33,585 bases of DNA, taken from positions 1 to 33,585 of the forward strand of contig JAUTXN010000366.1 of assembly GCA_030838045.1 (NCBI GenBank). The letters run 5' to 3'. The DNA comes from Acidimicrobiaceae bacterium (GTDB lineage: Bacteria > Actinomycetota > Acidimicrobiia > Acidimicrobiales > Palsa-688). Every line of letters starts with the position of its first letter. Positions within the stretch are counted from its first letter, which is position 1. The notes beneath the pieces are model-generated. The model saw only the letters and a list, made by a program, of their open reading frames with translations, did no database searches and had not been told where the DNA came from. Made by a program: the position numbers and the translations under genes. This document shows positions 1,707 through 21,358 of the stretch, one piece after another.

Positions 1707-2402
1707 CTAGTCCTTGAGTTCGGTGGCCTTTGCCCGACCGGCCCGACCGGTAGCCCGACCACTAGCCCGACCGGTGAGGAGCAGCCCGACGGCGGCGGAC
1801 AGCGGGATGACCTCGCCGCCGGTGGCCGCAGCCAGAGCGTGACGACGCCGGTTGGCCAGTCCTACGGCCAGGGCACCACTCGCCATGAGTCCCATCGCCA
1901 GGGTCAAGGGCGCAGTGGAGCTGCTACCGGTGAGCGGCAAGGTCTGGCCTTCCACCTGAATGGGCGTGCCAGCCTCACCGATGACGGTCGTACCGGGGTG
2001 GTCGCCAGGCGTGGTGGGAGGCGTGGTCGGATGCGTGGTGGGAGGCGGGCTGGAGGTGCAGGAGTTGCCGCCCGAGTTGCCCACGCCGGTGTTGCCGCCG
2101 CCGGAGTTGGCGGTGCCATTGTTGCCGCACCCGGAGTTGCCGGTGCCGGTGTTGCCCGAGCCGGAGTTCGCCGTACCGGTGTTGCCGGTGCCGGAGTTCG
2201 CGGTGCCGTTGTTGCCGCCGCCCGAGTTGCCGACACCGACATTGCCCATGCCCGAGTTCCCGGCACCTATGTTGCCGCACCCCGAACTCGAGATGTCGGC
2301 GTTGGGCGCACAGACGATCGGCGTCGACGCCAGGGCCGCTGGGGCAGAGTGCCCCGAGAGGGCCGAGACCAACATGAGGCTTGCAAGCAACGGAGCGGGC
2401 AT
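1707..2402 (-). CDS. Small secreted GNxG-repeat protein with LPLTG sorting signal
   Basis: The open frame begins at a GTG at 2457-2459, but ATG at 2400-2402 is chosen because a hydrophobic signal peptide begins directly after it (MPAPLLASLMLVSALSG, then AALA). The mature part starts with CAPNADI and about 16 pentapeptides of the type GNSGxGNTG or ANSGxGNxG, with cysteines in CAPN, GCGN, SGCGN and NSC. A Thr/Pro-rich stretch follows, then LPLTG (DNA 1926-1940), a hydrophobic segment and NRRRH, which is a standard cell-wall sorting signal. Unusually, about 45 residues follow the basic stop, including a second hydrophobic segment and a short RASG/RATG repeat. The pentapeptides resemble those of mycobacterial PPE-MPTR proteins. 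It is a miniature relative of the neighbouring giant protein and probably a surface protein. Neither start has a strong ribosome site. Confidence 0.75.
   Translation of the reverse strand: MPAPLLASLMLVSALSGHSAPAALASTPIVCAPNADISSSGCGNIGAGNSGMGNVGVGNSGGGNNGTANSGTGNTGTANSGSGNTGTGNSGCGNNGTANSGGGNTGVGNSGGNSCTSSPPPTTHPTTPPTTPGDHPGTTVIGEAGTPIQVEGQTLPLTGSSSTAPLTLAMGLMASGALAVGLANRRRHALAAATGGEVIPLSAAVGLLLTGRASGRATGRAGRAKATELKD
1736..1785 (-). repeat. 12-nt tandem repeat in the tail of the small surface protein
   Basis: Four imperfect copies of a unit close to GCCCGACCGGTA lie side by side. They encode the RASG/RATG/RAGRA tail of the small GNxG protein. The copies differ by one to three bases, so the tail looks like a minisatellite expansion after the sorting signal. 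Confidence 0.6.
2056..2315 (-). repeat. GNxG pentapeptide-repeat module of the small surface protein
   Basis: About 16 near-identical 15-nt units encode GNSG/GNTG/ANSG pentapeptides. Four Cys codons punctuate the module: two near its N-terminal edge (CAPN, GCGN), one inside (SGCGN) and one at the end (NSC). The same layout recurs in the giant protein at 2838-3096. Confidence 0.8.
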
Positions 2403-2500
2403 GGCGTCGGACGGTAGTTCATCAAGGATCCGATTGCAACCATCAGGGCCGCAACCCACCGAGAAACCACCAAACGGACACTACGGGGCCGGAAGCGCGG

Positions 2501-2583: not shown

Positions 2584-5500
2584 CTAACCCTCGCTGTCGG
2601 CTTCCTCACGCCGGCGACTGGTGAGGCCGACCGCCGCGCCACCACTCAGCAGCAGCCCGAGGGCTACGGCCAGCGGCATCGCGGTGTCTGATCCTGTCAG
2701 CGCCAGTGAGCTCACTTCGGCGGATGTCTCCTTCACATGCTTCACGTGCTTCCCCGGCGTACCGGGAACACCTGGGGTACCAGGAACGCCCGGTGTGCCA
2801 GGAACTCCTGGCGTACCGGGGACGCCGGTGATCGGGCACTCATCGGGGCCGGAGTTGCCGACGCCGACATTGAGGAAGCCCGAGTTCGCGGTACCGATGT
2901 TGAGGCAACCGGAGTTGCCCGTCCCGTTGTTGAGGAACCCGGAGTTGGCCATCCCGACATTTCCCGCACCCGAGTTGGCGACCCCGACGTTGCCGGCACC
3001 GCTGTTGCCGACGCCGGTGTTGCCGCGTCCCGAGTTGCCAACGCCGGTGTTGCCGCATCCCGAGCTGGCGATGTCGGCGTTGGGAGCACAGCCCGAAGCG
3101 GCCGTAGCCGCCGAAGCCGCGGGGGCTGCGTTACCGGTCGCCAACAGTGCCGCAGCATGTTGCCCGACGGCGCTGGTCGTCGATCCGGTGTCCACCGACG
3201 AGCTGAGCTTCGATGCCGAGAACGTGGCACCCGAAGCAGCAGCTGCGCCCGTGGCCCCGGCACTCGCCCCACTCGCTCCACTCGCCCCGCTGGCGGATGC
3301 CAGTGCGCTGAGGAACGAAGGCGCCTCGGGCGCCAGGTTGACGACGAGGAACGCAGGTCCGCCGGTGTCGCCCGAGCTGACGTTGATGGTCTCCGACGCG
3401 CTACCCGACGGGCCCGACGTTCCGCCGGGACCGCTGGCGGAGGTGTTGTCGGACACCGGATCGGAGTTCGCGGCGCCGCTGGTGCCACCGGTCGCCGAGG
3501 AATGGGTCTCAGCGGCGCCGCTGTCACCTGTGGTGGCATTGCCGGTGGCGGTGCCGACGGCAGCGCCGCTGGAACCACCGTTGGCCGTGCCCGTGGCGTC
3601 GCCGCTCCCGCCGGTGACCACGACGTTGGCGACCGCCCCGCTCCCGCCCCGTCCCACCGCGCCCGAGAACACGACAGGGGAAGTGGCAGCGCCGGTGGCC
3701 GCGGTGGTCGGGCGGACCGTTGCCCGCCCGCCGTTACCGCTGTCGGCGGTCACGACTGGAACGAGCGTCGCGGGTCCCGTGGTCCCGGTGTTTCCACCGG
3801 TCGCATCGGCGGCCGCTCCGGCATCCCCGCTGCGGGCATCGCCGATGGTGGTGGAGACGTTGCCCGCCGGGCCTGAAGGACCGCCGGGGCCGGTGGTCCC
3901 AGAGGTCGCCTCGCCTTCGGCCGTGGCCTTGCCCGTGCCGCCGGTCGGCCCGCTGGTACCGGGGCCGCCCGTGTCGCCCGAGGTGGCGTCGGAGGTCTGC
4001 GATGCACTGCCGGTCGCACCCGAGGCACCTCCGTCGCCCGAAACGGCGGCGTTGGTGGAACTGGGGTTGGAGACGGCATCGCCCGACGTCCCGCCGGTCG
4101 CCGATGCGGTGGTGATCGCGGCGCCGGAGTTGCCCGAGGTGGCGTTGCCCACCGAAGTGGCGGTTGCGCTACCCGAGGTCCCGCCGGTCGCGGTACCCGT
4201 GGCATCGCCGGAGTTGCCCGACACGACGGTGACACCGACGGCACCGCTGCCGCCGCGCCCGCCGACATCGCCCGAGAAGGCGGTACCTGACGTGGCGTCG
4301 CCGGTCGCCCGTGTCCTGGCCCGCACGCGAGCCCGGCCGCCGTTGCCGCTGGTGGCGGTGTTCACCGGACTGTTGGTGGCGGCGCCGGAGTCGCCCGACG
4401 TGCCACCGGTAGCAGCCGCCGTACCGCTGGCGTCGCCGCTGGCCGCGGCGCCCCTGGTGGTGGAGGTGTTGGACGCATCACCGGAGTCGCCGCCGCTGCC
4501 GGAGTCGCCCGATTCTGCGCCGCCCGATGCCGCAGCCGCACCCGAACCTCCGGTGCCCACCGGGGCCACCGGATCGGTGGTCCCCGACGTGGCGCTCGAC
4601 GTCTGCGACGCCGAACCGCTCGCCCCTGACGCACCGCCGTTGCCCGAGCCCGCCGTGTTGGCCGAAGTCGGGTTGGAGGTGGCGGCACCACTGGTCCCGC
4701 CGGTGGCGGACGCGCTGGTCGTCGTGTCACCCGTCGTCCCCGACGTGGCGTTGCCCGTCGAGGAGGCGGTGGCGGCGCCGGATGAGCCACCATTGGCAGT
4801 GCCGTCGGCGGCGCCACTGTCACCACTGGTCACATCGACCGCGACGGCCCCGCTACCACCGGAACCCGTGACGGCGCCCGAGAAGGCCGCACCTGAGGTG
4901 GCGGCGCCGGTGGCGCCTGAGCGGGACCGTACACGAGCCGCTCCGCCATTCCCGCTGGTGGCTGTGTTCACGGGCACGTTGGTGGCGTCACCCGACGTAC
5001 CGGTGTTGCCACCGACGACAGTTGCGCTGCCGTTGGCCGACCCGCTGCCCGCGGTCCCAGTCGTGAGGGAGGCGTTGGTCGCGTCGCCGGTTGCCCCACC
5101 GTCACCGGTCTCGCCCGATTCGGCGCCTCCCTCGGAGGTGGCGCTTCCCGAGCCGCCCGTCGGACCGACCGTGGCCGGACTGCCGGTGTCGCCCGATGCT
5201 GCGGTCGACGTCTGGGAAGCGCTTCCGGAGGCACCTGAGGCACCGCCGTCTCCCGAAGCTGCCGTATTGGTGGAACCAGGGCTCGCGGTGGCGGCGCCCG
5301 ATGTGCCCCCGGTCGCCGACGCCGTGGTCAGCGAGGAGCCGGAGTCGCCTGAGGTGGCGTTGCCGGTGGAACTGGCCGTGGCCGCGCCCGACGTGCCGCC
5401 GGTGGCGTCGCCGCTGGCATCGCCGGAGTTGCCGCTGGTCACGTCGACGCTCACGGCCCCGCTACCGCCGCTACCGGTCACGTCGCCCGAGAACGCTGCT

Positions 5501-8500
5501 CCGGACGTGGCGTCGCCGGTCGCCCCGGTCCTGGAACGTACCCTGGCGATCCCACCGTCACCGCTGACCGCGGTGTTGGTCGGTGCGTTGGTGGCGGCGC
5601 CAGAGTCGCCCGAGGTGCCCCCGGTGGCCGTGGCCGTGCCGTTGGCGGAGCCGCTCGTGGCCGCACCGGTGGTGGTCGAGGTGTTGGTCGCGTCGCCCGT
5701 CTCTCCGCCGTCACCGGTGGCGCCGCTGGTGGCTTCGCCTTCGGCGCTGGCGTTCCCCGAGCCACCGGTGGGTCCGGTGGCCGCCAGGGTGTCACCCGAG
5801 GTGGCGGTGGAGGTTTGCGATGCGGTCCCGGTGGCGCCCGAGGCCCCGCCGTTGCCCGTCCCCGCCACGTTGGCCGAAGTCGGGTTGGCAGTGGCGGCCC
5901 CGCTGGTGCCGCCGGTCGCCGAGGCGTGGGTCACGGAGTCACCCGTGGCGCCCGAGGTGGCGTTGCCGGTCGACGACGCGGTGGCAGCACCGGAGGAACC
6001 GCCGTTGGCCGTCCCGTCGGCGGCGCCACTGTCGCCGCTCGTGACGTCGACACTCACGGCGCCGCTTCCACCCCTGCCGGTCACGGTGCCCGAGAATGCC
6101 GCACCTGAGGTGGCCGCGCCGGTGTTGCCGCTGCGCAGCCGCACCGTGGCGTCGCCCCCCAACCCGCTGAGGGCCAGGTTGACCGGGGCGTTGGTGGCGG
6201 CGCCCGAGCTGCCGGTGTTGCCACCGGTTGCCGTGGCGCTGCCGTTGGCCGCCCCGCTGGTCGCGGTCCCGCTGGTCAGCGTTCCGCCGATCCGCCCGCC
6301 GGTGTTGGTCGCCGCGCCGGAGTCGCCCCCGGTGCCGGAATCACCCGAGACGGCGTCGCCGTCGCTGGTGGCCCGGCCAGAGCCGCCGGTGGGACCGGTG
6401 GTCGTCGGACCGCCGGTGGCCCCCGAGGCGGCCGAGGAGGTCTGCGACGCGCTGCCGGTGGCGCCCGAGGCCCCGCCGTCACCGCTGCCGGCCGCATTGG
6501 TCGACGTCGGGCTGGCGGTGGCGCTGCCCGATGTCCCGCCAGTGGCCGAGGAGGTGGTCACGCTGGAGCCGGTATCGCCGCTGGTGGCGTTGCCGGTGGA
6601 TGTGGCGGTGGCCGCTCCGGAGGTGCCGCCCGTCGCAGAGCCCGTCTCGTCACCCGAGGACCCGGAGGTCACGGTGACATCGACGGCGCCGCTGCCGCCG
6701 TTGCCGGTCACGTCGCCCGAGAAGGCGGCGCCCGAGGTGGCGGACCCGCCACTGACGTTGACGCTGACGGCACCACTGCCGCCGCCGCCCGTCACAGCAC
6801 CCGAGAAGGCGGTGCCCGACGTGGCGCCGGGACCGGCCGCACCGGTAAGGGAAATCACCGTCGCCGTCCCACCGTCGCCGCTCGTGGCGATGTTGGTGGG
6901 CGAGTTGGTGGCGGCGCCCGAATCGCCGGAGGTGCCCCCGGTGGAGGTGGCGATGCCCGTCGCAGAACCGGTGTTCGCCACACCGAAGGTGCGGGACCGG
7001 TTCGTGGAGTCGCCTGAGGACCCGCCGTCGCCGGAGAAGCCAGAGTTGGCGTCACCGTCGGCCGAGGCCGCGCCCGAGGCGCCGGTCGGTCCCGCCGGAG
7101 GATCGGTGGTCCCCGACGTGGCGTCGGAGGTCTGGGAGGCGGCCCCGGTCGCACCGGATGCGCCGCCGTTACCGGTGGCGGCGGTATTGGCCGAGGTGGG
7201 GCTTGCGGTGGCGCTACCCGACGTGCCGCCCGTCGCCGAAGCGCTGGTCACGGAGTCGCCGGTGTTGCCCGAGGTGGCGTCACCGGTGGAGGCCGCGGTG
7301 GCCGCGCCGGAGCTTCCGCCGTTGCCGCCGTTGCCGTCGCCGCCGGTTCCGCTGAGCGCCACGTTGACCGGGGCGTTGGTCGCCGCACCGGACGTGCCGG
7401 TGTTGCCACCGAGGGCGACGGCGAGTGCGCCGGCGTCGCCGGTGATGGCCGTCCCACGGGTGCGGGAACGGTTGAACGCGTCGCCCGACTCGCCGCCGGC
7501 GCCCGAGTCACCCGAGGTGGCCTCGCCCGTCGCGCGTGCCGCGCCGGAGCCACCGGTGGGCCCGGTGCCCGTGGGGCTGCCGGTGTCACCGGATGCCGCT
7601 TCGGACGTCTGCGACGCCGTGCCGGTCGCACCGGAAGCGCCGCCGTCGCCCGTCGAGGCCGAGTTGGTCGAGCTGGGGCTGGCGGTGGCGTTACCCGACG
7701 TGCCGCCCGTGGCCGATGCCGTGGTCACCGAGGATCCGGTGCTGCCGCTGATGGCATCGCCCACCGAAGCTGCGGTGGCCGCACCCGAGGTGCCGCCCGT
7801 ACCGCCGCCGTTGCCCGCACCGCCGTTACCGCTCGTCGCGGTGTTGGTCGGGGTGTTGGTGGCGGGACCCGAGCCGCCGCTCGTGCCGCCGATTGCCACC
7901 GCGCCGGCACTGGCGTCGCCACTGATCGCCCGGCCGCGAGTGCGGGACCGGTTCGTGGCGGAGCCCGAGGAGCCGCCGTCGCCCGAGAAACCCGAGAACG
8001 CGTCACCATCCGCAGTGGCCCGGCCCGAGCCGCCGGTCACGCCGGGGCCGGCCGCAGCCGTGTTACCCGACGAGGCCAGCGAAGTCTGTGCGGCGCTGCC
8101 GGTGGTCCCGGAGGCTCCGCCGTCGCCGGTGGTGGCGCTGTTGGACGAAGTGGGGCTGGCGGTGGTCCAGCCACTGGTGCCGCCCGTCGCCGAGGCATGC
8201 GTGGCGGTGTCGCCCGTGGCCCCCGAGATGGCGTCGCCCGCCGATGCTGCGACCGCTTCACCGGTCGAGCCACCGTTGCCGCCGCCGCCGACACCGCCGG
8301 CACCGCTGGTGGCGGTGTTGACCGGGGCGTTGGTGGCCGCACCGGACGAACCGGTGTTACCGCCGACCGCCAAGGCACCGGCGCCCGCGTCGCCGCTGAA
8401 TGCCCGGCCGCGGGTGAAGGAGGTGTTGCTGGCATCACCCGAGTCGCCGCCGGTGCCCGAGTCACCCGAGACGGCATCGCCGTCGGCGCGTGCGTTGCCC

Positions 8501-11500
8501 GAACCACCGGTTGTACCGGTCGTGGTCGGGCCGCCGGTGTCGCCCGAGGCGGCATCGGACGTCTGGGAGGCCGTCCCGGTGTTGCCCGAGGCCCCGCCCG
8601 CTCCGCTGGAGGCGGTGTTGGAGGAGGATGGGCTCGACGTGGCGTTGCCCGAGGTGCCGCCCGTCGCCGAGGCGGTGGTGAGTGAGGAGCCGGTATCGCC
8701 GCTGATGGCGTCGCCGACCGAGGTCGCGGTGGCGGCGCCCGAGGTGCCGCCGGTACCGCTCACGCCCGCGCCGCCGGCGCCGCTGGTGGCGGTGTTCACC
8801 GGAACGTTGGTGGCGGGCCCGGAGTTGCCGCTGGTACCGCCAAGGGCGACCGCGATGCCGAAGGCGTCGCCGGTGACCGCCCGACCGTTCGTGCGCGAGG
8901 TGTTGGTGGCGTCGCCCGAGGCGCCGCCGTCACCCGAGAAGCCCGATCCGGCGAAGCCGGTGGCCCGGGCGCTGCCCGAACCGCCGGTGGTACCGGCCGG
9001 CGGGTCAGTCGAGCCGCTGGCGGCGGTGGAGGTCTGCGAAGCGCTGCCGGTCGAGCCGGAGGCGCCGCCATTACCCGAGTTCGCCTCGTTGGAGGACGTG
9101 GGATCGGCTGTGGCGTCACCTGAGGTGCCACCGGTAGCCGAACCGGTGGTGGTGACATCGCCCGTGGTACCCGAGATGGCGTCGCCGACCGAGGAGGCCG
9201 TTGCTGCGCCCGAGGAGCCGCCGTTCGCCGTGTCCGACGCCGATCCGGAGCCGCCCCCGGCGCCGTTGGCGACCGTGACATCGACTGAACCGCTGCCGCC
9301 GCCGCCCGTCACGGCACCCGAGAACGCAGTGCCCGAGGACGCGGGGCCCCCGGTCACGGTGACGTCAACGGCACCGCTGCCGCCGCCGCCGCTGACTGCG
9401 CCCGAGAACGCGGTGCCTGAGGTGGCAGGGCCCGAGCCGCTGTTGACGCCGACGTTGACGGCACCGCTGCCGCCGCCGCCGCTGACTGCGCCCGAGAAGG
9501 CAGTACCCGAGGTGGCTGCGCCGTCACCGCTGTTGACGCTGACGTTGACGGCACCGCTGCCGCCGCCGCCCGTCACGGCACCCGAGAACGCGGTGCCCGA
9601 CGTGGCGCCTCCGCTGGCGCCGGTGCTGGAGGCGGAGTCGGCGGTTCCGCCCGCGCCGCTGGCAGCGGTGTTGACTGGTGCGTTGGTGGCCGCGCCGGAC
9701 GAACCGGAGTTGCCGCCCAACGAGATCGCCAGGGCACCGACGTCGCCGGTGACCGCGGTCCCGGTGGTGTCGGAAGTGTTGGTGGCGTCGCCCGTCTCGC
9801 CGCCGGTACCGGAGTCACCCGAGATCGCGGTGCCCGAAGCGCGGGCCCGGCCCGAACCGCCCGTCGCTCCGGCGCCGGCGGGGTCGCCGGTGTCGCCCGA
9901 GGTGGCGTCAGAAGTCTGCGAGGCGCTCCCGGTGGCGCCCGAGGCACCGCCGTCGCCCGTCGATGCCGAGTTGGTCGAACCGGGGTTGGCGACCGCGTCG
10001 CCTGAGGTCCCGCCGGTGGCCGAGGAGGTGGTGAGAACCGCCCCGGTGTCACCCGAGATGGCATCGCCGGCCGACCGGGCGCTGGCCGCGCCCGAAGTCC
10101 CGCCGGTGGCTGCGCCGGTGGCGTCGCCCGTCGTACCCGACGTCACGGTCACATCGACCGCGCCGCTGCCGCCGCCGCCGTGGACGTCGCCCGAGAAGGC
10201 AGCGCCGGAGGTGGCGGCGCCCGTGGCGCCGCTATCGGCCGTGGTGACGGCCGCGCCGCCGTCACCGGAGACCGCGGTGTTGACAGGCACGTTGGTGGCG
10301 TCGCCCGAGTCGCCGCTGGTTCCCCCGAGGGAGAACGCGAGGGCGCCGGCGCTACCGGACGTCGCGGCACCCGTCGTAGTCGAGGAGTTGGTGGCGTCGC
10401 CCGAGGCCCCGCCGTCACCTGAGAAGCCCGATCCCGCGAAACCCGAGGCCCGGGCGGCACCAGAGGCGCCCGTCGGACCAACCGGCGGGTCGGTGTTGCC
10501 CGACTCGGCGGTCGAGGTCTGCGAGGCAGAACCCGTGGGGCCCGACGCCCCGCCGCCACCCGTGCTGGCGGTGTTGGCCGAGGTGGGGCTGGCGGTGGCG
10601 GCACCCGAGGTCCCGCCGGTCGCCGACGAGGTGGTGACGGTGTCGCCCGTGGCGCCCGAAATGGCATCCCCGGTCGACGACGCGGTGGCCGCGCCGGTGG
10701 AACCGCCGTTGGCGGTGCTGGTGGCGGCGCCCGAGTCGCCCGAGGTGACCGTGACCGCAACTGCGCCGCTTCCACCGCCGCCGGTGACGGTGCCCGAGAA
10801 GGCAGCCCCCGAAGTGGCGGCGCCGGTGGCGCCGCTGGTCGTCGCGGTGGTGGCCGTGCCACCGGCACCACTGACCGCGGTGTTGACCGGGGCGTTGGTG
10901 GCGGCACCCGAAGTGCCGGTGTTGCCACCAAGTGAGATGGCGGTGGCGTCCGCTTCACCGCTCCTCGCGGTGCCGGTGGTCGCCGAGGTGTTCGTCGCTG
11001 CGCCCGAGTCGCCGCCGGTGCCAGAGTCGCCCGAGATCGCGGTACCGCTGGACCGGGCCAAGCCCGACCCGCCGGTCGGCCCACCCGAGGTGGGGCTGCC
11101 GGTGTCGCCCGAAGTGGCACCGGACGTCTGCGAGGCGCTCCCGGTGGCGCCCGAGGCGCCGCCGTCGCCCGTGCCCGCGGTGTTGGCCGAGGTCGGGCTG
11201 GCGGTGGCGGCACCCGAGGTGCCGCCGGTGGCCGAGGCGGTGGTGACCGTGTCGCCGGTCGCACCGGAGATGGCGTCGCCGGTTGACGACGCAGTCGCGG
11301 CACCGGAGGTACCGCCGGTCGCGTTGCCGGTGGCGGCACCGGAGTTGCCCGAGGTCACGGTGACCGCGACGGCGCCGCTGCCACCGCCGCCGTGGACATC
11401 GCCCGAGAAGGCGGCGCCCGAGGTGGCCGCGCCGGTCGCCCCGCTGGCGGCAGTGACGACGGCGGCGCCGCCATCACCGGACAAGGCGGTGTTGACCGGG

Positions 11501-14205
11501 ACATTGGTGGCATCGCCCGAGTTGCCGGAGGTGCCGCCCGTGGCGAATGCTCCCCCTTCGGCTTCGCCCGTGGTGGCGGTGCCGGTCGTGGCGGAGGTAT
11601 TCGTCGCGTCCCCGGAGAATCCGCCGTCGCCCGAGAAACCCGAGAACGCCGCGCCGGTGGCACGGGCCCGGCCTGAGCCGCCCGTGGGACCAACCGGGGG
11701 ATCGGTGTTGCCCGAGGTGGCGCTGGAGGTCTGCGAGGCGGTGCCGGTGGCGCCCGAGGCGCCGCCGTTGCCCGTGCCCGCGGTGTTGGATGACGTCGGG
11801 CTGGCGGTGGCGCTGCCCGAGGTGCCGCCGGTCGCCGAGGAATGCGTGACCGAGTCGCCGGTGGCGCCGGAAACGGCGTTGCCGGTCGACGAGGCGGTGG
11901 CCGCGCCGGTGGAGCCGCCGTTGGCGGTACCTGTGGCGTCACCCGAGCTGCCCGAGGTGACATGGACGGCGACGGCGCCGCTTCCGCCGCCCCCGGTGAC
12001 GGCGCCCGAGAAGGCGGTGCCCGAGGTGGCGGCACCGGTGCTGCCGGAGGTCACGCCGACAGTGGCATTGCCGCCGGTGCCGCTGACCGCGGTGTTGACC
12101 GGAGCGTTGGTGGCGGCACCCGAGGTACCGGTGTTGCCGCCGATGGCGGTCGAGTCGCCGGTGGCCTCGCCGCTGGTCGCGGTGCCCGTGGTGGCGGAGG
12201 TGTTGGTGGCGGCACCGGAGTCGCCGCCGGTACCGGAGTCACCGGAGGTCGCAGTGCCGTTGCCCGTGGCCCGCCCTGAGCCGCCCGACGGGCCGGCCCC
12301 ACCGGTGGAGCCAGAGGTGGCGCCCGAGGTCTGGGAAGCCGCGCCGGTGGCGCCCGAAGCGCCGCCGTCGCCGCTGCCGGCTGCATTGGTGGACACCGGA
12401 CTGGCAACCGCGCCGCCCGACGTGCCGCCGGTGGCCGACGACGTGGTCGTCGAATCTCCGGTGGCGCCGGAGGTGGCGTTGCCGGTCGAGGTGGCCGTGG
12501 CCGCGCCCGAGGTGCCGCCGGTGGCGTTGCCAGTGGCGGCGCCCGAGTCGCCCGAGACGACCGTCACGAGGACTGCGCCGCTGCCGCCGCCGCCGGTGAC
12601 GGCGCCGGAGAACACGGTGCCGGAGGTGGCGGCGCCGGTGTTGCCGCTGGTGGCGGTGACCGTGGCCGAGCCGCCGGGGCCGGACGTGGCGGTGTTCACC
12701 GGAACGTTGGTGGCGTCGCCCGAGTTGCCCGAGGTGCCGCCGGTCGCGGTGGACGAGCCGGATGCGTCGCCCGTGGTGGCGGTGCCGGTGGTCCCCGAGT
12801 TGTTGGTGGCATCGCCCGAAAAGCCGCCGGCGCCCGAGTCGCCGGACGTCGCGGTGCCGTTACCGCGCGCCGAGCCCGAACCGCCGGTGGGACCGGAGCC
12901 GGTGGCGCCGGTGTCACCCGACGATCCGATGGAGGTCTGCGAGGCCGTACCGGTGGCACCCGAGGCGCCGCCGTTGCCGCTGCCCGCGGTGTTGGTGGAC
13001 ACCGGGCTGGCAACCGCGCCGCCCGAGGTGCCCCCCGTCGCCGACGACGACGTGGTCGTGGAGCCGGTGGCGCCCGATGTGGCGTTGCCGGTCGAGGTGG
13101 CGGTGGCCGGACCGGAGGACCCGCCGTTGGCGGTGCCAGTGGCGGCACCGGAGTTACCGGAGATCACGGTCACCATGACCGCGCCACTGCCCCCACCATG
13201 GGTGGCGGCACCCGAGAACACGGTCCCGGAGGTGGCGGCGCCGGTGTTGCCGCTGGTCGGCGTGACGTTGGCGTTGCCGCCGGCGCCGCTGGTTGCGGTG
13301 TTGACGGGGGCGTTGGTCGCCGAACCGGAGCTGCCGGTGTTGCCGCCGGTGGCCTCAGAGGTGGCGTCGGCTTCGCCCGACGAGGCCGTGCCGGTGGTAT
13401 CCGAGACGTTGGAGGCGATACCCGAGTCGCCGCCGGCGCCCGAAGAACCGGAGCCCGCGGATCCCGCCGCGGACGCCTGGCCGGAACCGCCGCTGGGCGC
13501 GCTCCCGGAGGTGCTGGTGCTGCCCGTGGCCGCGAGGGACGTCTGGGACGCGCTGCCGGTGGGGCCGGAATGGCCGCCGTTGCCCGTGGTGGCGGTGTTG
13601 GTGGACACCGGACTGGCGACCGCCGAGCCCGAGGTGCCTCCCGTGGCCGAGGAGGTGGTGGTCGAGGCACCCGACGCGCCCGAAGTGGCGTTGCCGACCG
13701 AGGATGACGTGGCGGCGCCCGAGGAGCCGCCGGTGGCGTTGCCGACCGCAGCGCCGGAGTTACCGGTCGTAACGATCACAGCCACCGCGCCGGTACCGCC
13801 GCCTGCGCCGCCGCCGCCGCCGCCGGAGAAGACGGTCCCGGAGGACGCGCCGCCCGTCGTGCCGCTGACCGGCGTCGCGGTGCCCGCGCCGCCCGCGCCG
13901 CTAGCCGCGGTGACAACGGGGCTCACGGTGGCAGCCCCGGTTGACCCGGTCGTGCCTCCGGTCGCCGTCGCGGTCGCAGCCGCGCTCCCGCTGTGGGCGG
14001 ACCCAGTCGTGGTCGAGCCGTTGGTCGACGGCCCTGAGGCTCCGCCCGCGCCAGTGCCACCGGTGGTGGACGCGCCGGTGCCGGTGGCCTGTCCTGTACC
14101 TCCGCTCGGCCCGGCAGCGACCGGTGCAGTAGTTGAAGCAGTGGAAACGCCGGGGTCCCGACTAAGGGTGGCCGCGAGCGCGAGAACTCCGAGCAGTCCT
14201 GACAT
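2584..14205 (-). CDS. Giant Gly/Ser/Thr/Ala repeat surface protein (3,873 aa) with LALTG sorting signal
   Basis: The open frame extends upstream to 14409, but ATG at 14203-14205 begins a signal peptide (MSGLLGVLALAATLS) and is preferred; no strong ribosome site is visible. Residues after it up to about 3,580 are 18 units of near 200 residues made almost only of G, S, T, A, N and D, with landmarks such as ATNAPVNTATSG, FSGAVTGGGGSGAV, ATGGTSG and GGASGATG. They have no cysteine and very few aromatics. The C-terminal part has an Ala/Ser linker, CAPNADI plus GNxG pentapeptides with four cysteines, four collagen-like GVPGTP copies, KHVKHVKE, then LALTG, a hydrophobic segment and SRRREE. LAxTG is the motif reported for class E sortases. 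A wall-anchored fibre, stalk or adhesin is inferred. No enzymatic domain and no sortase gene were seen. The long frame has no break. Confidence 0.85.
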   Translation of the reverse strand: MSGLLGVLALAATLSRDPGVSTASTTAPVAAGPSGGTGQATGTGASTTGGTGAGGASGPSTNGSTTTGSAHSGSAAATATATGGTTGSTGAATVSPVVTAASGAGGAGTATPVSGTTGGASSGTVFSGGGGGGAGGGTGAVAVIVTTGNSGAAVGNATGGSSGAATSSSVGNATSGASGASTTTSSATGGTSGSAVASPVSTNTATTGNGGHSGPTGSASQTSLAATGSTSTSGSAPSGGSGQASAAGSAGSGSSGAGGDSGIASNVSDTTGTASSGEADATSEATGGNTGSSGSATNAPVNTATSGAGGNANVTPTSGNTGAATSGTVFSGAATHGGGSGAVMVTVISGNSGAATGTANGGSSGPATATSTGNATSGATGSTTTSSSATGGTSGGAVASPVSTNTAGSGNGGASGATGTASQTSIGSSGDTGATGSGPTGGSGSARGNGTATSGDSGAGGFSGDATNNSGTTGTATTGDASGSSTATGGTSGNSGDATNVPVNTATSGPGGSATVTATSGNTGAATSGTVFSGAVTGGGGSGAVLVTVVSGDSGAATGNATGGTSGAATATSTGNATSGATGDSTTTSSATGGTSGGAVASPVSTNAAGSGDGGASGATGAASQTSGATSGSTGGAGPSGGSGRATGNGTATSGDSGTGGDSGAATNTSATTGTATSGEATGDSTAIGGNTGTSGAATNAPVNTAVSGTGGNATVGVTSGSTGAATSGTAFSGAVTGGGGSGAVAVHVTSGSSGDATGTANGGSTGAATASSTGNAVSGATGDSVTHSSATGGTSGSATASPTSSNTAGTGNGGASGATGTASQTSSATSGNTDPPVGPTGGSGRARATGAAFSGFSGDGGFSGDATNTSATTGTATTGEAEGGAFATGGTSGNSGDATNVPVNTALSGDGGAAVVTAASGATGAATSGAAFSGDVHGGGGSGAVAVTVTSGNSGAATGNATGGTSGAATASSTGDAISGATGDTVTTASATGGTSGAATASPTSANTAGTGDGGASGATGSASQTSGATSGDTGSPTSGGPTGGSGLARSSGTAISGDSGTGGDSGAATNTSATTGTARSGEADATAISLGGNTGTSGAATNAPVNTAVSGAGGTATTATTSGATGAATSGAAFSGTVTGGGGSGAVAVTVTSGDSGAATSTANGGSTGAATASSTGDAISGATGDTVTTSSATGGTSGAATASPTSANTASTGGGGASGPTGSASQTSTAESGNTDPPVGPTGASGAARASGFAGSGFSGDGGASGDATNSSTTTGAATSGSAGALAFSLGGTSGDSGDATNVPVNTAVSGDGGAAVTTADSGATGAATSGAAFSGDVHGGGGSGAVDVTVTSGTTGDATGAATGGTSGAASARSAGDAISGDTGAVLTTSSATGGTSGDAVANPGSTNSASTGDGGASGATGSASQTSDATSGDTGDPAGAGATGGSGRARASGTAISGDSGTGGETGDATNTSDTTGTAVTGDVGALAISLGGNSGSSGAATNAPVNTAASGAGGTADSASSTGASGGATSGTAFSGAVTGGGGSGAVNVSVNSGDGAATSGTAFSGAVSGGGGSGAVNVGVNSGSGPATSGTAFSGAVSGGGGSGAVDVTVTGGPASSGTAFSGAVTGGGGSGSVDVTVANGAGGGSGSASDTANGGSSGAATASSVGDAISGTTGDVTTTGSATGGTSGDATADPTSSNEANSGNGGASGSTGSASQTSTAASGSTDPPAGTTGGSGSARATGFAGSGFSGDGGASGDATNTSRTNGRAVTGDAFGIAVALGGTSGNSGPATNVPVNTATSGAGGAGVSGTGGTSGAATATSVGDAISGDTGSSLTTASATGGTSGNATSSPSSSNTASSGAGGASGNTGTASQTSDAASGDTGGPTTTGTTGGSGNARADGDAVSGDSGTGGDSGDASNTSFTRGRAFSGDAGAGALAVGGNTGSSGAATNAPVNTATSGAGGVGGGGNGGSTGEAVAASAGDAISGATGDTATHASATGGTSGWTTASPTSSNSATTGDGGASGTTGSAAQTSLASSGNTAAAGPGVTGGSGRATADGDAFSGFSGDGGSSGSATNRSRTRGRAISGDASAGAVAIGGTSGGSGPATNTPTNTATSGNGGAGNGGGTGGTSGAATAASVGDAISGSTGSSVTTASATGGTSGNATASPSSTNSASTGDGGASGATGTASQTSEAASGDTGSPTGTGPTGGSGAARATGEATSGDSGAGGESGDAFNRSRTRGTAITGDAGALAVALGGNTGTSGAATNAPVNVALSGTGGDGNGGNGGSSGAATAASTGDATSGNTGDSVTSASATGGTSGSATASPTSANTAATGNGGASGATGAASQTSDATSGTTDPPAGPTGASGAASADGDANSGFSGDGGSSGDSTNRSRTFGVANTGSATGIATSTGGTSGDSGAATNSPTNIATSGDGGTATVISLTGAAGPGATSGTAFSGAVTGGGGSGAVSVNVSGGSATSGAAFSGDVTGNGGSGAVDVTVTSGSSGDETGSATGGTSGAATATSTGNATSGDTGSSVTTSSATGGTSGSATASPTSTNAAGSGDGGASGATGSASQTSSAASGATGGPTTTGPTGGSGRATSDGDAVSGDSGTGGDSGAATNTGGRIGGTLTSGTATSGAANGSATATGGNTGSSGAATNAPVNLALSGLGGDATVRLRSGNTGAATSGAAFSGTVTGRGGSGAVSVDVTSGDSGAADGTANGGSSGAATASSTGNATSGATGDSVTHASATGGTSGAATANPTSANVAGTGNGGASGATGTASQTSTATSGDTLAATGPTGGSGNASAEGEATSGATGDGGETGDATNTSTTTGAATSGSANGTATATGGTSGDSGAATNAPTNTAVSGDGGIARVRSRTGATGDATSGAAFSGDVTGSGGSGAVSVDVTSGNSGDASGDATGGTSGAATASSTGNATSGDSGSSLTTASATGGTSGAATASPGSTNTAASGDGGASGASGSASQTSTAASGDTGSPATVGPTGGSGSATSEGGAESGETGDGGATGDATNASLTTGTAGSGSANGSATVVGGNTGTSGDATNVPVNTATSGNGGAARVRSRSGATGAATSGAAFSGAVTGSGGSGAVAVDVTSGDSGAADGTANGGSSGAATASSTGNATSGTTGDTTTSASATGGTSGAATSNPTSANTAGSGNGGASGASGSASQTSSATSGTTDPVAPVGTGGSGAAAASGGAESGDSGSGGDSGDASNTSTTRGAAASGDASGTAAATGGTSGDSGAATNSPVNTATSGNGGRARVRARTRATGDATSGTAFSGDVGGRGGSGAVGVTVVSGNSGDATGTATGGTSGSATATSVGNATSGNSGAAITTASATGGTSGDAVSNPSSTNAAVSGDGGASGATGSASQTSDATSGDTGGPGTSGPTGGTGKATAEGEATSGTTGPGGPSGPAGNVSTTIGDARSGDAGAAADATGGNTGTTGPATLVPVVTADSGNGGRATVRPTTAATGAATSPVVFSGAVGRGGSGAVANVVVTGGSGDATGTANGGSSGAAVGTATGNATTGDSGAAETHSSATGGTSGAANSDPVSDNTSASGPGGTSGPSGSASETINVSSGDTGGPAFLVVNLAPEAPSFLSALASASGASGASGASAGATGAAAASGATFSASKLSSSVDTGSTTSAVGQHAAALLATGNAAPAASAATAASGCAPNADIASSGCGNTGVGNSGRGNTGVGNSGAGNVGVANSGAGNVGMANSGFLNNGTGNSGCLNIGTANSGFLNVGVGNSGPDECPITGVPGTPGVPGTPGVPGTPGVPGTPGKHVKHVKETSAEVSSLALTGSDTAMPLAVALGLLLSGGAAVGLTSRRREEADSEG
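2752..2829 (-). repeat. Collagen-like GVPGTP repeat
   Basis: Four consecutive copies encode GVPGTP, a strict Gly-X-Y pattern. The copies use different synonymous codons (gtaccgggaaca, gtaccaggaacg, gtgccaggaact, gtaccggggacg on the plus strand), so the peptide is conserved more than the DNA. The stretch lies between the cysteine module and the sorting signal, a usual position for a stiff wall-spanning spacer. Confidence 0.8.
2838..3096 (-). repeat. GNxG pentapeptide module of the giant protein
   Basis: Fifteen-nucleotide units encode GNTGVGNSG, GNVGVANSG, LNNGTGNSG and similar pentapeptides. The four cysteines (CAPN, GCGN, SGCLN, DEC) sit in the same order and at similar places as in the small protein at 2056-2315, so the two modules are homologous. 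Confidence 0.8.
3746..13950 (-). repeat. 18 tandem units of about 605 bp in the giant gene
   Basis: The codons for the ATNxPVNTA landmark recur near 13906, 13296, 12688, 12088, 11486, 10877, 10273, 9665, 8788, 8311, 7838, 7358, 6887, 6174, 5569, 4960, 4354 and 3746. Spacing is 600-610 bp, except for one interval of about 877, four of 471-480 and one of about 713. First and last units are degenerate (PVVTA in place of PVNTA). Successive units alternate between a GGNTG...TNAPVN form and a GGTSG...TNVPVN form, so the true period is a dimer of about 1.21 kb. Positions were read by eye and may be off by a few bases. Confidence 0.85.
9265..9605 (-). repeat. Fourfold amplified FSG-GGGGSGAV submodule
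   Basis: Four back-to-back copies of a submodule of about 90 bp encode SGTAFSGAVTGGGGSGAV followed by a short VxVxxG strand-like stretch. Most other units contain a single copy. The extra three copies account for the long 877-bp interval between unit landmarks, while the following four units lack the submodule. Confidence 0.8.
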
Positions 14206-14374
14206 GGGCGGGGACGGTACTTGACGGACAACCCTTACGCAACCATCCCAGGAGAGAAGAACCAAAGGTATAAAGGGCGGCTGACCTGGTATGGGGATAC
14301 CAGGGCGCAGTCCCCTGGTAGGTTGCTCAGGCGGTCGTTTCGCGGCAACACCAGTGACGGAACAAGAGGTATCG
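14206..14374. promoter_or_regulatory. Divergent regulatory region with a perfect inverted repeat (14285-14304)
   Basis: This 169-nt region separates the giant surface gene (minus) from the esterase-like gene (plus). It holds arms CCTGGTAT and ATACCAGG, perfectly complementary around a GGGG centre, and a further half-site CCTGGTA at 14314-14320. A TATACC box on the minus strand (14267-14272) could be a -10 element for the giant gene; the inverted repeat would then lie over its -35 position. This fits an operator for one regulator acting on both genes. A plain hairpin in a transcript is the alternative. Confidence 0.5.
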
Positions 14375-16720
14375 GTGGGTTCGGGACGGCAGTCCAAATT
14401 CGGGGTCAAGGGGACCCGCCAGGGGAAGGTGACGGTCTGGCGAGGGGTGCCCTACGCCGACGCGCCCGAAGGCCCCCGCCGGTTCCAGCCGCCCCAGCCG
14501 TCGCCACCGTGGGACGGGCCCCGCACGGCCATCGAGTTCGGCCCGTCGAGCATCTCGACCGACGTCCCGGGCCTCGTCCTGCCGTCAGGATCGGGCGTCG
14601 TACCCGAGAGCGAGGATTGCCTTTACCTCAACGTCTGGTCACCAAGGGCTCGGGGAAAACCCCGCCCGGTCCTGGTCTGGCTGCACGGAGGGGCGTTCGT
14701 CTTCGGCAGCGGGAGCAACTTTGACGGGGCATGGCTGGCCAACCGCGGTGACGCCGTCGTCGTGACGATCAACTACCGCCTGGGTCCATGGGGCTTCCTG
14801 GACCTGGCGGCGATCGGCGGGACGGGCCTCGACCAGTCGGTCAACGTGGGCATGCTCGACCAAGTCGCGGCCCTGCAATGGGTGAGCGACAACATCGAGG
14901 CGTTCGGTGGCGATCCCGACCGGGTGACGGTGATCGGGCAGGCCTCCGGTGCGACCTGCGTCGGGGCGCTGCTGGCCATGCCCGCCGCAGCCGGCTTGTT
15001 CCACCGGGCGGTCATGCAGAGCGGCGCTGCCGACCGGGTCCAGAGCCGCTGGCGCTCCCGGTCGGTCGTCGTTCGCGTCCTCAACTCGCTCGGCGTCGAC
15101 TACCGAGAGGTGTCGAAGCTCCAAGACCTCCCGGTCGAGGCAATAAAGCAGGCCGCGGGCTCGTTGATGCGCGATTCGGACGACGCCGAACTTGAAGGCG
15201 AGCCCTTCCTGCCCGTGGTCGACGGCACCGTGCTGCCGGGCCATCCCATGGCCGGCTTGGTCTCGGGAGCGTCGTCTCAGGTACCTCTACTCATAAGTAC
15301 CTGCCAGCAGGAGGCCAACCTCTACCTCGCCATCTCACCCGAGGGCTTCATCAAGGCCAAGGAACTGCGGGCCCGGGCGTGGTTCGGCGATGTCGCCTGG
15401 GAGCGGCTGGTGCGGACCTACGAGAAGGGATCGCCGCCCGATCGGGGCCGGGCCGACCTGCTCACCGATCTGCTGTTCGGCATTCCCGCCGTGCGCACCG
15501 CCGAAGCCCACCACCGAGGTGGGGGCCGGACGTGGATCATGCGCTTCGACCACACGCCGGGCCAGGTCCCCTTCGACCAGCTCGGACCCTGCCACGGGGC
15601 CGACCTGCCTTTCACCTGGTTGGACTTCACCGGACCAACCGAGGGGGCGTTCCCCGGGCTGTCGACCAACGCCGACCGCACGGTTGCCGAACTGCTGCAA
15701 GACGTGATCTTGAACTTCGCCCGCCTCGGCGACCCCGGGATACCGGCGCTTCCCGCCTGGCCGTCCTACCAACCGGGCCGCCGGGCGGTCATGTCGATCC
15801 AGTCCCGTGCCGCGCTCGACATGGACCCGGCGCCCGAGCGACGACGGGCGTGGGACGCCCTGCCGCTGCCCCAGACGCTCAACGTGCGCCGCTCGTCCAG
15901 CCCGGCCCGACCCCCGGGTCCAAGAGCGACCGTCCCCGCGAGCCCGGCGGCCAAGTCCGCTCCCGAGGAACCCCAAGCCCCGACCGAAGCGGCTGAACCG
16001 ATGAGCCCCGCGGCCCCGGCGCCCATCGACACCTGGGCCGACCCCGCCCCCGCCGAAACCCCAGCCCCGGCCGCTGTCGACAGCTGGGCCGACCCCTCTC
16101 CCCTGGAGACCCCGGCCCCGGCCGAGCCGGCTGAGCCGGCAAACCCCGAAGCCCCCACGAGCGCCGAAAGCCCGCCCGACGCCACCACCCCGGCCCCGCC
16201 CGACCCCGAGACCTGGGCCGCCCCGCCCGACCCCGCCCCCCCCACCACCGCCGACGAATGGGTCGACCCCGTCGCCCCAGCCCCGTCCGAGCCGCCCGGC
16301 ACGGCTGAGCCTGAGCGCCTGACAGCCCTGGATCTGTTCGACGGCTGGACAGATGCCGACCTGCCCACCTTGGCCACCCCGACCATTTTCGATGAACCGG
16401 CCAGCCCCACAAGCGCTCACACCGGAGCCGAACCCGCCGCCCCGATCAAGCCGCCTGAGCCGGAACGCCTCGGAGGCCCGGATTGGTTCGATGGCTGGGC
16501 GGACGAGTATCCGCCCACCTCACTCGCCGCGACCATCGCGGCTGATCCGGCAGTCCCCGCTGACTCCGCCGAGCCAACCCCCTCGGCCGAACCGGAGTAC
16601 CCGGCACCGCCCGAGCGCGCTGACGACTCGTCGGATCCCGTCGCCCCGGAAGGCCCGGTACCCACCATGGACCCGCCGTCGCGGAAGGTTCGACGCCTCC
16701 GGCGGTCGCGCCAACGGTAG
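14375..16720 (+). CDS. Carboxylesterase-fold (type B) protein, probably inactive, with Pro-rich tail
   Basis: GTG at 14375 is chosen because AAGAGG lies five bases upstream and the type B esterase family normally starts close to this point; the frame is open back to ATG 14291. Residues 1-510 show the family order: GVPYADAPEGPRRF, the oxyanion loop WLHGGAFVFGSG, NYRLGPWGF, FGGDPDRVTVIG, the catalytic-acid region TCQQEA and the histidine region CHGADLPF. At the nucleophile elbow, where the family has GESAG, the sequence reads GQASG, so alanine occupies the serine position. The last 270 residues form a Pro/Ala/Glu-rich tail with DTWADP, DSWADP, ETWAAP, DEWVDP, DLFDGW and DWFDGW motifs and a basic end (RRLRRSRQR). 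No signal peptide is evident. Esterase activity is doubtful; a binding role like that of cholinesterase-like adhesion proteins is possible. Confidence 0.8.
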   Translation: MGSGRQSKFGVKGTRQGKVTVWRGVPYADAPEGPRRFQPPQPSPPWDGPRTAIEFGPSSISTDVPGLVLPSGSGVVPESEDCLYLNVWSPRARGKPRPVLVWLHGGAFVFGSGSNFDGAWLANRGDAVVVTINYRLGPWGFLDLAAIGGTGLDQSVNVGMLDQVAALQWVSDNIEAFGGDPDRVTVIGQASGATCVGALLAMPAAAGLFHRAVMQSGAADRVQSRWRSRSVVVRVLNSLGVDYREVSKLQDLPVEAIKQAAGSLMRDSDDAELEGEPFLPVVDGTVLPGHPMAGLVSGASSQVPLLISTCQQEANLYLAISPEGFIKAKELRARAWFGDVAWERLVRTYEKGSPPDRGRADLLTDLLFGIPAVRTAEAHHRGGGRTWIMRFDHTPGQVPFDQLGPCHGADLPFTWLDFTGPTEGAFPGLSTNADRTVAELLQDVILNFARLGDPGIPALPAWPSYQPGRRAVMSIQSRAALDMDPAPERRRAWDALPLPQTLNVRRSSSPARPPGPRATVPASPAAKSAPEEPQAPTEAAEPMSPAAPAPIDTWADPAPAETPAPAAVDSWADPSPLETPAPAEPAEPANPEAPTSAESPPDATTPAPPDPETWAAPPDPAPPTTADEWVDPVAPAPSEPPGTAEPERLTALDLFDGWTDADLPTLATPTIFDEPASPTSAHTGAEPAAPIKPPEPERLGGPDWFDGWADEYPPTSLAATIAADPAVPADSAEPTPSAEPEYPAPPERADDSSDPVAPEGPVPTMDPPSRKVRRLRRSRQR

Positions 16721-20023: not shown

Positions 20024-20027
<4 letters not shown>
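19086..20027 (-). CDS. Soluble Ser/Thr protein kinase, paralogue of the next gene
   Basis: This 313-residue Hanks-type kinase has [14 protein letters not shown] (Lys42), HRDLKPGN (135-142), DFG (155-157), [10 protein letters not shown] and the substrate-binding DIYALG region. It matches the downstream kinase over nearly the full domain, including the unusual shared SPEKPMGG motif right after it. It then ends in a Gly-rich, basic stretch ([15 protein letters not shown]) instead of a membrane helix. It is therefore expected in the cytosol, perhaps loosely membrane-associated through the basic end. The ATG overlaps the PP2C stop as ATGA and its own stop overlaps the next start in the same way. 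Autophosphorylation and partner sharing with the sister kinase are inferences. Confidence 0.9.

Positions 20028-21358
<1,331 letters not shown>

Follow-up and report, generated by a model that had tools for sequence, protein, structure and literature searches.

A giant repeat protein with a sortase-type anchor signal in an Acidimicrobiaceae bacterium, probably grown by copying pairs of alternating units

The window analysed here, a DNA stretch of 33,585 nucleotides, is an entire contig of a 4.0-Mb metagenome-derived Acidimicrobiaceae-type genome, whose bin comprises 380 contigs. Its minus strand carries a giant surface-protein gene and a small paralogue of the C-terminal part of that gene, and both are preceded by the same promoter-like motif. 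The gene-level features are as follows.

14213..14247 (-): promoter-like motif GATGGTTGC-N19-TACCGTC, in which TACCGT ends 8 bases before ATG 14205
2584..14205 (-): giant surface-protein gene, an open frame of 3,873 aa from ATG 14205
14131..14205 (-): likely signal peptide MSGLLGVLALAATLSRDPGVSTAST, by sequence reading, with a weak n-region
2857..3063 (-): GNTGVGNSG pentapeptide-2 repeat stretch (Pfam PF01469, E = 6.3e-12)
2753..2826 (-): collagen-like GVPGTP stretch, four copies (Pfam Collagen, E = 0.0016, below cut-off)
2584..2706 (-): LALTG sorting signal, hydrophobic stretch and basic tail SRRREE (from sequence; Gram_pos_anchor E = 0.024, below cut-off)
2410-2444 (-): second copy of GATGGTTGC-N19-TACCGTC, in which TACCGT ends 8 bases before ATG 2402 of the small paralogue
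1707..2402 (-): small paralogue of the giant protein's C-terminal part, predicted to be wall-anchored, 231 aa starting at ATG 2402, with GNxG repeats and LPLTG

The initial annotation had placed a giant repeat protein at 3746-13950; the open frame was confirmed, and the strand was corrected to minus. A mechanical ORF call starts at a TTG and extends to 14409, and the minus strand is open from 14409 to 2584. ATG 14205 is the likely start, because a 1-base indel directly upstream shifts the frame between the window species and a sister species of the same genus, and because TACCGT ends 8 bases before it. Between the two species, divergence in the giant-gene frame is 0.38 at third codon positions versus 0.10 and 0.09 at the other two, with a dN/dS of 0.17, and the protein sequence is clearly under purifying selection. 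A plus-strand antisense ORF of 3,867 aa (2621-14224) was dropped as a shadow frame, as the sister species has stops in it.

After ATG 14205, a hydrophobic MSGLLGVLALAATLS can be read in the sequence without a clear basic n-region, and about 20 codons of the likely signal-peptide region have identical residues and identical codons in the sister species. Exact copies of the upstream motif are found only twice in the 4.0-Mb genome, at the two putative wall-anchored genes, and its fixed bases are identical upstream of the sister-species giant gene. By its spacing to the ATG, the motif looks like a leaderless promoter shared by both genes. The DNA at about 14125-14410 is unusually conserved between the species and includes two change-free runs of roughly 65-85 bases each. 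These runs cover about 20 giant-gene codons, with no synonymous change (pS of the repeats is 0.41), as well as the divergent start region. When this region was searched against Rfam, there was no match at the gathering threshold and only chance-level matches below it, and a riboswitch or other known RNA was dropped on this ground.

At the C-terminus of the giant protein, the PF01469 match reaches 45.6 bits against a cut-off of 26.4 and is confined to this part of the chain. LALTG at 2692-2706 is followed by a hydrophobic stretch and then by SRRREE, which is the build of an LAXTG-type C-terminus. The small paralogue is 61% identical to the giant C-terminus, matches PF01469 with E = 4.3e-10 and scores over the cut-off of LPXTG_anchor TIGR01167. 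Sortases are encoded in both genomes, with three in the window genome by PF04203. Two of the window-genome sortases carry HRTTYG and match SrtE1 5cuw, although other sortases score higher. Since a tyrosine has been described for the class E sortase SrtE1 (PMC5148588), HRTTYG in the two enzymes is consistent with class E, and they may be called class-E-like. Elsewhere in the window genome, a sortase gene adjoins the gene of an LPVTG-type surface protein (L050:1474-3124, minus strand).

The LAXTG-type sorting signal on an actinobacterial surface protein is shared with the long chaplins ChpA-C and with the class E substrates CwpA and CwpB of Actinoplanes, which have 337 and 436 residues (PMC13251363). 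However, a chaplin domain is marked by GN motifs and two cysteines (PMC13251363), whereas the repeats of the giant protein lack cysteine and have no Pfam match. Chaplin membership was dropped because, in addition, Pfam gave no chaplin match on the unit or on the whole protein. Similarly, the GNTGVGNSG stretch matches PF01469 as in the mycobacterial PPE-MPTR pentapeptide-2 proteins, but here the match is limited to a short piece of the chain and no PPE domain was found.

The repeat array consists of 18 minus-strand units with the landmark GG[N/T][S/T]G..G.AT..P, which form nine dimers of a T-type and an N-type unit.

12742..13959 (-): dimer 1, unit 1 (T, degenerate PVVTA) and unit 2 (N)
11539..12741 (-): dimer 2, unit 3 (T) and unit 4 (N)
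10327..11538 (-): dimer 3, unit 5 (T) and unit 6 (N)
8842..10326 (-): dimer 4, unit 7 (T) and unit 8 (N; 292 aa, four ~30-aa sub-modules)
7891..8841 (-): dimer 5, unit 9 (T, 159 aa) and unit 10 (N, 158 aa), both without the ~30-aa sub-module
6940..7890 (-): dimer 6, unit 11 (T, 160 aa) and unit 12 (N, 157 aa), short
5623..6939 (-): dimer 7, unit 13 (T; 238 aa, two sub-modules) and unit 14 (N)
4408..5622 (-): dimer 8, unit 15 (T) and unit 16 (N)
3358..4407 (-): dimer 9, unit 17 (T) and unit 18 (N; degenerate PVVTA, recognisable over ~147 aa)

The strict two-type alternation across 18 units that had been noticed at the outset was borne out. GG[T/N] reads T,N,T,N in order in 18/18 units (the chance of strict alternation for one 9:9 column is 4e-5), and the A[T/N]GG site (unit position 74) likewise alternates in 18/18; position 77 (T/S) alternates in 17/18, and positions 171 and 174 do so in most units. 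Neighbouring positions had been said to alternate in most units as well. This applies to the D/F and T/D sites of SG[D/F]SG[T/D]GG mainly in units 3-12, and for APVN/VPVN it fails in units 14-18. The period of two is also seen over the whole chain: self-identity of the protein is 0.299 at lag 404 versus 0.22-0.24 at lags 201-203, with 0.156 expected by chance from composition. Pairwise identity between units ranges from 44 to 80%, and for units 2-17 the identity of same-parity pairs exceeds that of different-parity pairs by 0.051, a difference attained in 2 of 20,000 shuffles of the labels. Leaving out the four hallmark columns still gives an excess of 0.031, which 7 of 20,000 shuffles reach. 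A period-3 grouping of the units, tested likewise, gave no signal. The sum of parity mutual information over all columns was not significant alone (381 of 5,000 shuffles), whereas the identity-based tests were significant.

The dimers are less regular in size than in the first description, which gave about 1.21 kb for all nine. This figure suits the pairs of units 1-2, 3-4, 5-6, 15-16 and 17-18 and not the other four, and the range is about 0.95-1.49 kb. Dimer size is irregular because units, which are 157-292 aa long, carry zero, one, two or four copies of a ~30-aa sub-module. The greatest divergence within the array is seen in its first and last units, which do share PVVTA; this fits their proposed role as capping repeats, but simple end decay would fit as well.

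Searches beyond the array returned few relatives. Pfam gave no family on the repeat unit, and the only above-cut-off match on the whole protein was the C-terminal PF01469 stretch. Homologues were found neither in 30 other genomes of the family nor in 297 genomes of the order (a limited first look), nor in plasmids or viral contigs, and GTDB genome contigs gave only the sister species; the one named relative with the same gene, the Acidimicrobiaceae MAG BP_112, is apparently the sister-species sequence. Single-unit relatives are present in both genomes, on G001:C76 in the sister genome and at the end of G000:C62 in the window genome. The former (L035:2478-3746, minus strand) is open over about 423 codons and has a C-terminal membrane-like stretch, and the latter occupies the last ~340 bases of L036, where it is cut by the contig end. 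The repeats, which have no sequence relative in Pfam or the PDB and occur in one genus only among the searched genomes, can thus be regarded as uncharacterised structural material from a poorly studied actinobacterial class.

Using the sister species, the age of the array could be assessed. Unit order in its giant gene is unchanged from unit 1 to unit 10, within which the contig ends, and the comparison between species accordingly covers the gene as far as unit 10. The lengths of units 1-9 (204, 202, 200, 201, 203, 201, 203, 292 and 159) are identical in both species. Orthologous units are 81-90% identical, versus at most 80% for any two units within one protein, and every unit has its orthologue as its closest match. 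Identity at 4-fold sites between units is 0.54 at lag 1 and 0.54 at lag 2, where chance from codon usage is about 0.41-0.54 depending on the residue, and pS is 0.48 between units versus 0.41 between species. As units are closest to their orthologues and synonymous sites between units are near chance, pair copying predates the species split. Recent dimer duplication or gene conversion was dropped, because synonymous sites are equal at lag 1 and lag 2. Since the split, the array is frozen as far as it can be compared, and it is under purifying selection.

The two parity classes also behave as lineages. On a tree built from 27 units of both species, 2 changes suffice for the odd/even label, versus 9.3 with shuffled labels, which speaks for the growth by dimer duplication put forward in the initial annotation; seven orthologue pairs (units 1, 2, 4, 7, 8, 9 and 10) were recovered with strong support. 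As an exception, unit 2 clusters with the odd unit 3, and growth was therefore not purely by clean dimers. In the sister species, A[T/N]GG alternates in 10/10 units and the D/F site in units 3-10. At GG[T/N], the order of residues there is S,N,D,D,T,T,T,D,V,D, without alternation, and the overall parity test on these ten units alone is weak (1,126 of 20,000 shuffles). Taken together, growth by dimer duplication before the species split is well supported by the sequence comparisons, and parity appears to be inherited and kept at some turn-like sites.

From these data, we consider it probable that the giant protein is a secreted, sortase-anchored stalk or fibre whose array grew by pairs before the two species separated and has since been fixed. 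According to this model, the protein would be secreted and attached to the cell wall through its C-terminal LALTG, with a class E type sortase making the link. The 18 Gly/Ala/Ser/Thr-rich units, in which these four residues account for 78%, cysteine and tyrosine are absent and the net charge is about -131, would extend outwards from the cell, probably in the form of a beta-rich rod with a possible role in a surface coat or in adhesion. The array would have started as a single unit, of which single-unit paralogues persist in the genus. This unit would then have doubled, with the halves diverging into the T type and the N type, and repeated copying of the T/N pair as a block would have given the strict alternation. 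All this would have preceded the split between the genus's two known species, and afterwards copy number and order in the comparable part would have stayed fixed, with the protein under purifying selection.

Other explanations concern either the present role of the alternation and the fold or the state of the array itself. Selection could keep the alternation because a fibre needs two faces, with T and N units either contacting two partners via distinct loops or taking turns in a lateral assembly. In its favour, the alternating residues are mostly confined to turn-like segments rich in glycine (GG[T/N], A[T/N]GG[T/S] and SG[D/F]SG[T/D]GG) and are not scattered along the unit, and A[T/N]GG alternates without exception in the 18 + 10 units of both species while synonymous sites are near chance. 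However, the alternation at GG[T/N], strict in the window, is missing from the sister species. The same pattern would be expected if two inherited lineages were simply under general purifying selection, and two AlphaFold predictions (pLDDT 38 and 35) drew short strands without a usable fold. We hold selection for a two-face fibre to be unlikely. The fuller proposal, in which an undescribed beta-solenoid-like fold carries the alternation as a selected two-face code and packs or binds with a two-unit period, is rather doubtful. It is likewise unlikely that the repeats lack a fixed fold, in which case the stalk would be disordered, rich in Ser and Thr, possibly O-glycosylated, and would serve only to hold something away from the wall. 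The same low pLDDT values of 35-38 would suit such a stalk, and so would the low-complexity composition, with 35% Ser and Thr and 25% Gly. But about 70 columns, mostly glycines, are invariant among the units despite near-saturated synonymous sites, and sequence has been lost or gained in whole modules of ~30-45 aa, neither of which is like a disordered linker.

The initial annotation likened the array to satellite DNA. Growth and homogenisation via recent unequal exchange of dimers, as in such DNA, would explain a period-2 structure inside one open frame, but the details did not sustain it and we regard it as very improbable. There is no homogenisation, as 4-fold identity is the same at both lags and lag 2 has no shared synonymous signature; exact DNA repeats reach 41 bp at most, and the second species keeps the first ten units in order and the first nine in length. 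Misassembly could be suspected in a metagenome bin of 380 contigs, in particular as the sister gene is cut by a contig end inside the array. With exact repeats of only 41 bp at most and a second-species assembly that has equal unit order and equal lengths for the first nine units, misassembly of the array is unlikely; it was dropped for units 1-10, and an artefact as the explanation of the pattern has barely any probability.

Copying of several repeats at once is a common growth route of domain repeats (PMC1553488) and is known at larger scale from titin (PMC10665226). The giant protein resembles the super-repeats of the titin A-band and of nebulin in its higher-order repeats, in which units at equal positions resemble each other (PMC10665226, PMC1553488), and here too such units are more alike than neighbours. 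Titin and nebulin, however, are muscle proteins of eukaryotes whose super-repeats comprise 7 or 11 domains of known fold, and they have no sequence relation to the units. Among bacterial proteins, the staphylococcal SasG/Aap is similarly a wall-anchored, single-chain, repeat-built protein with two alternating elements. In SasG/Aap these are two different domains, E and G5, of 50 and 78 residues with strain-variable repeats (PMC4458895, PMC9704523), whereas the giant protein alternates two divergent versions of one ~202-aa unit in a number that is fixed where comparable. As a long repetitive stalk on a bacterial surface, it also recalls the Periscope Proteins, which are defined by highly identical repeats of variable number (PMC9704523). 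In contrast, its units are only 44-80% identical with 4-fold sites near chance, and the compared part is stable. Giant proteins that grow by multi-repeat copying are therefore already known, and the T/N-dimer protein is a tidy new example from bacteria. Its value is that of a clear example from bacteria, in which a giant surface protein would have grown two repeats at once and then been frozen, and two species make it possible to separate duplication history from current selection.

Elsewhere in the window, a 46-copy degenerate hexanucleotide repeat (CGGCTC) at 20948-21223 overlaps a PP2C-type phosphatase frame (20024-21358, minus strand), which stands beside two Ser/Thr kinase genes.
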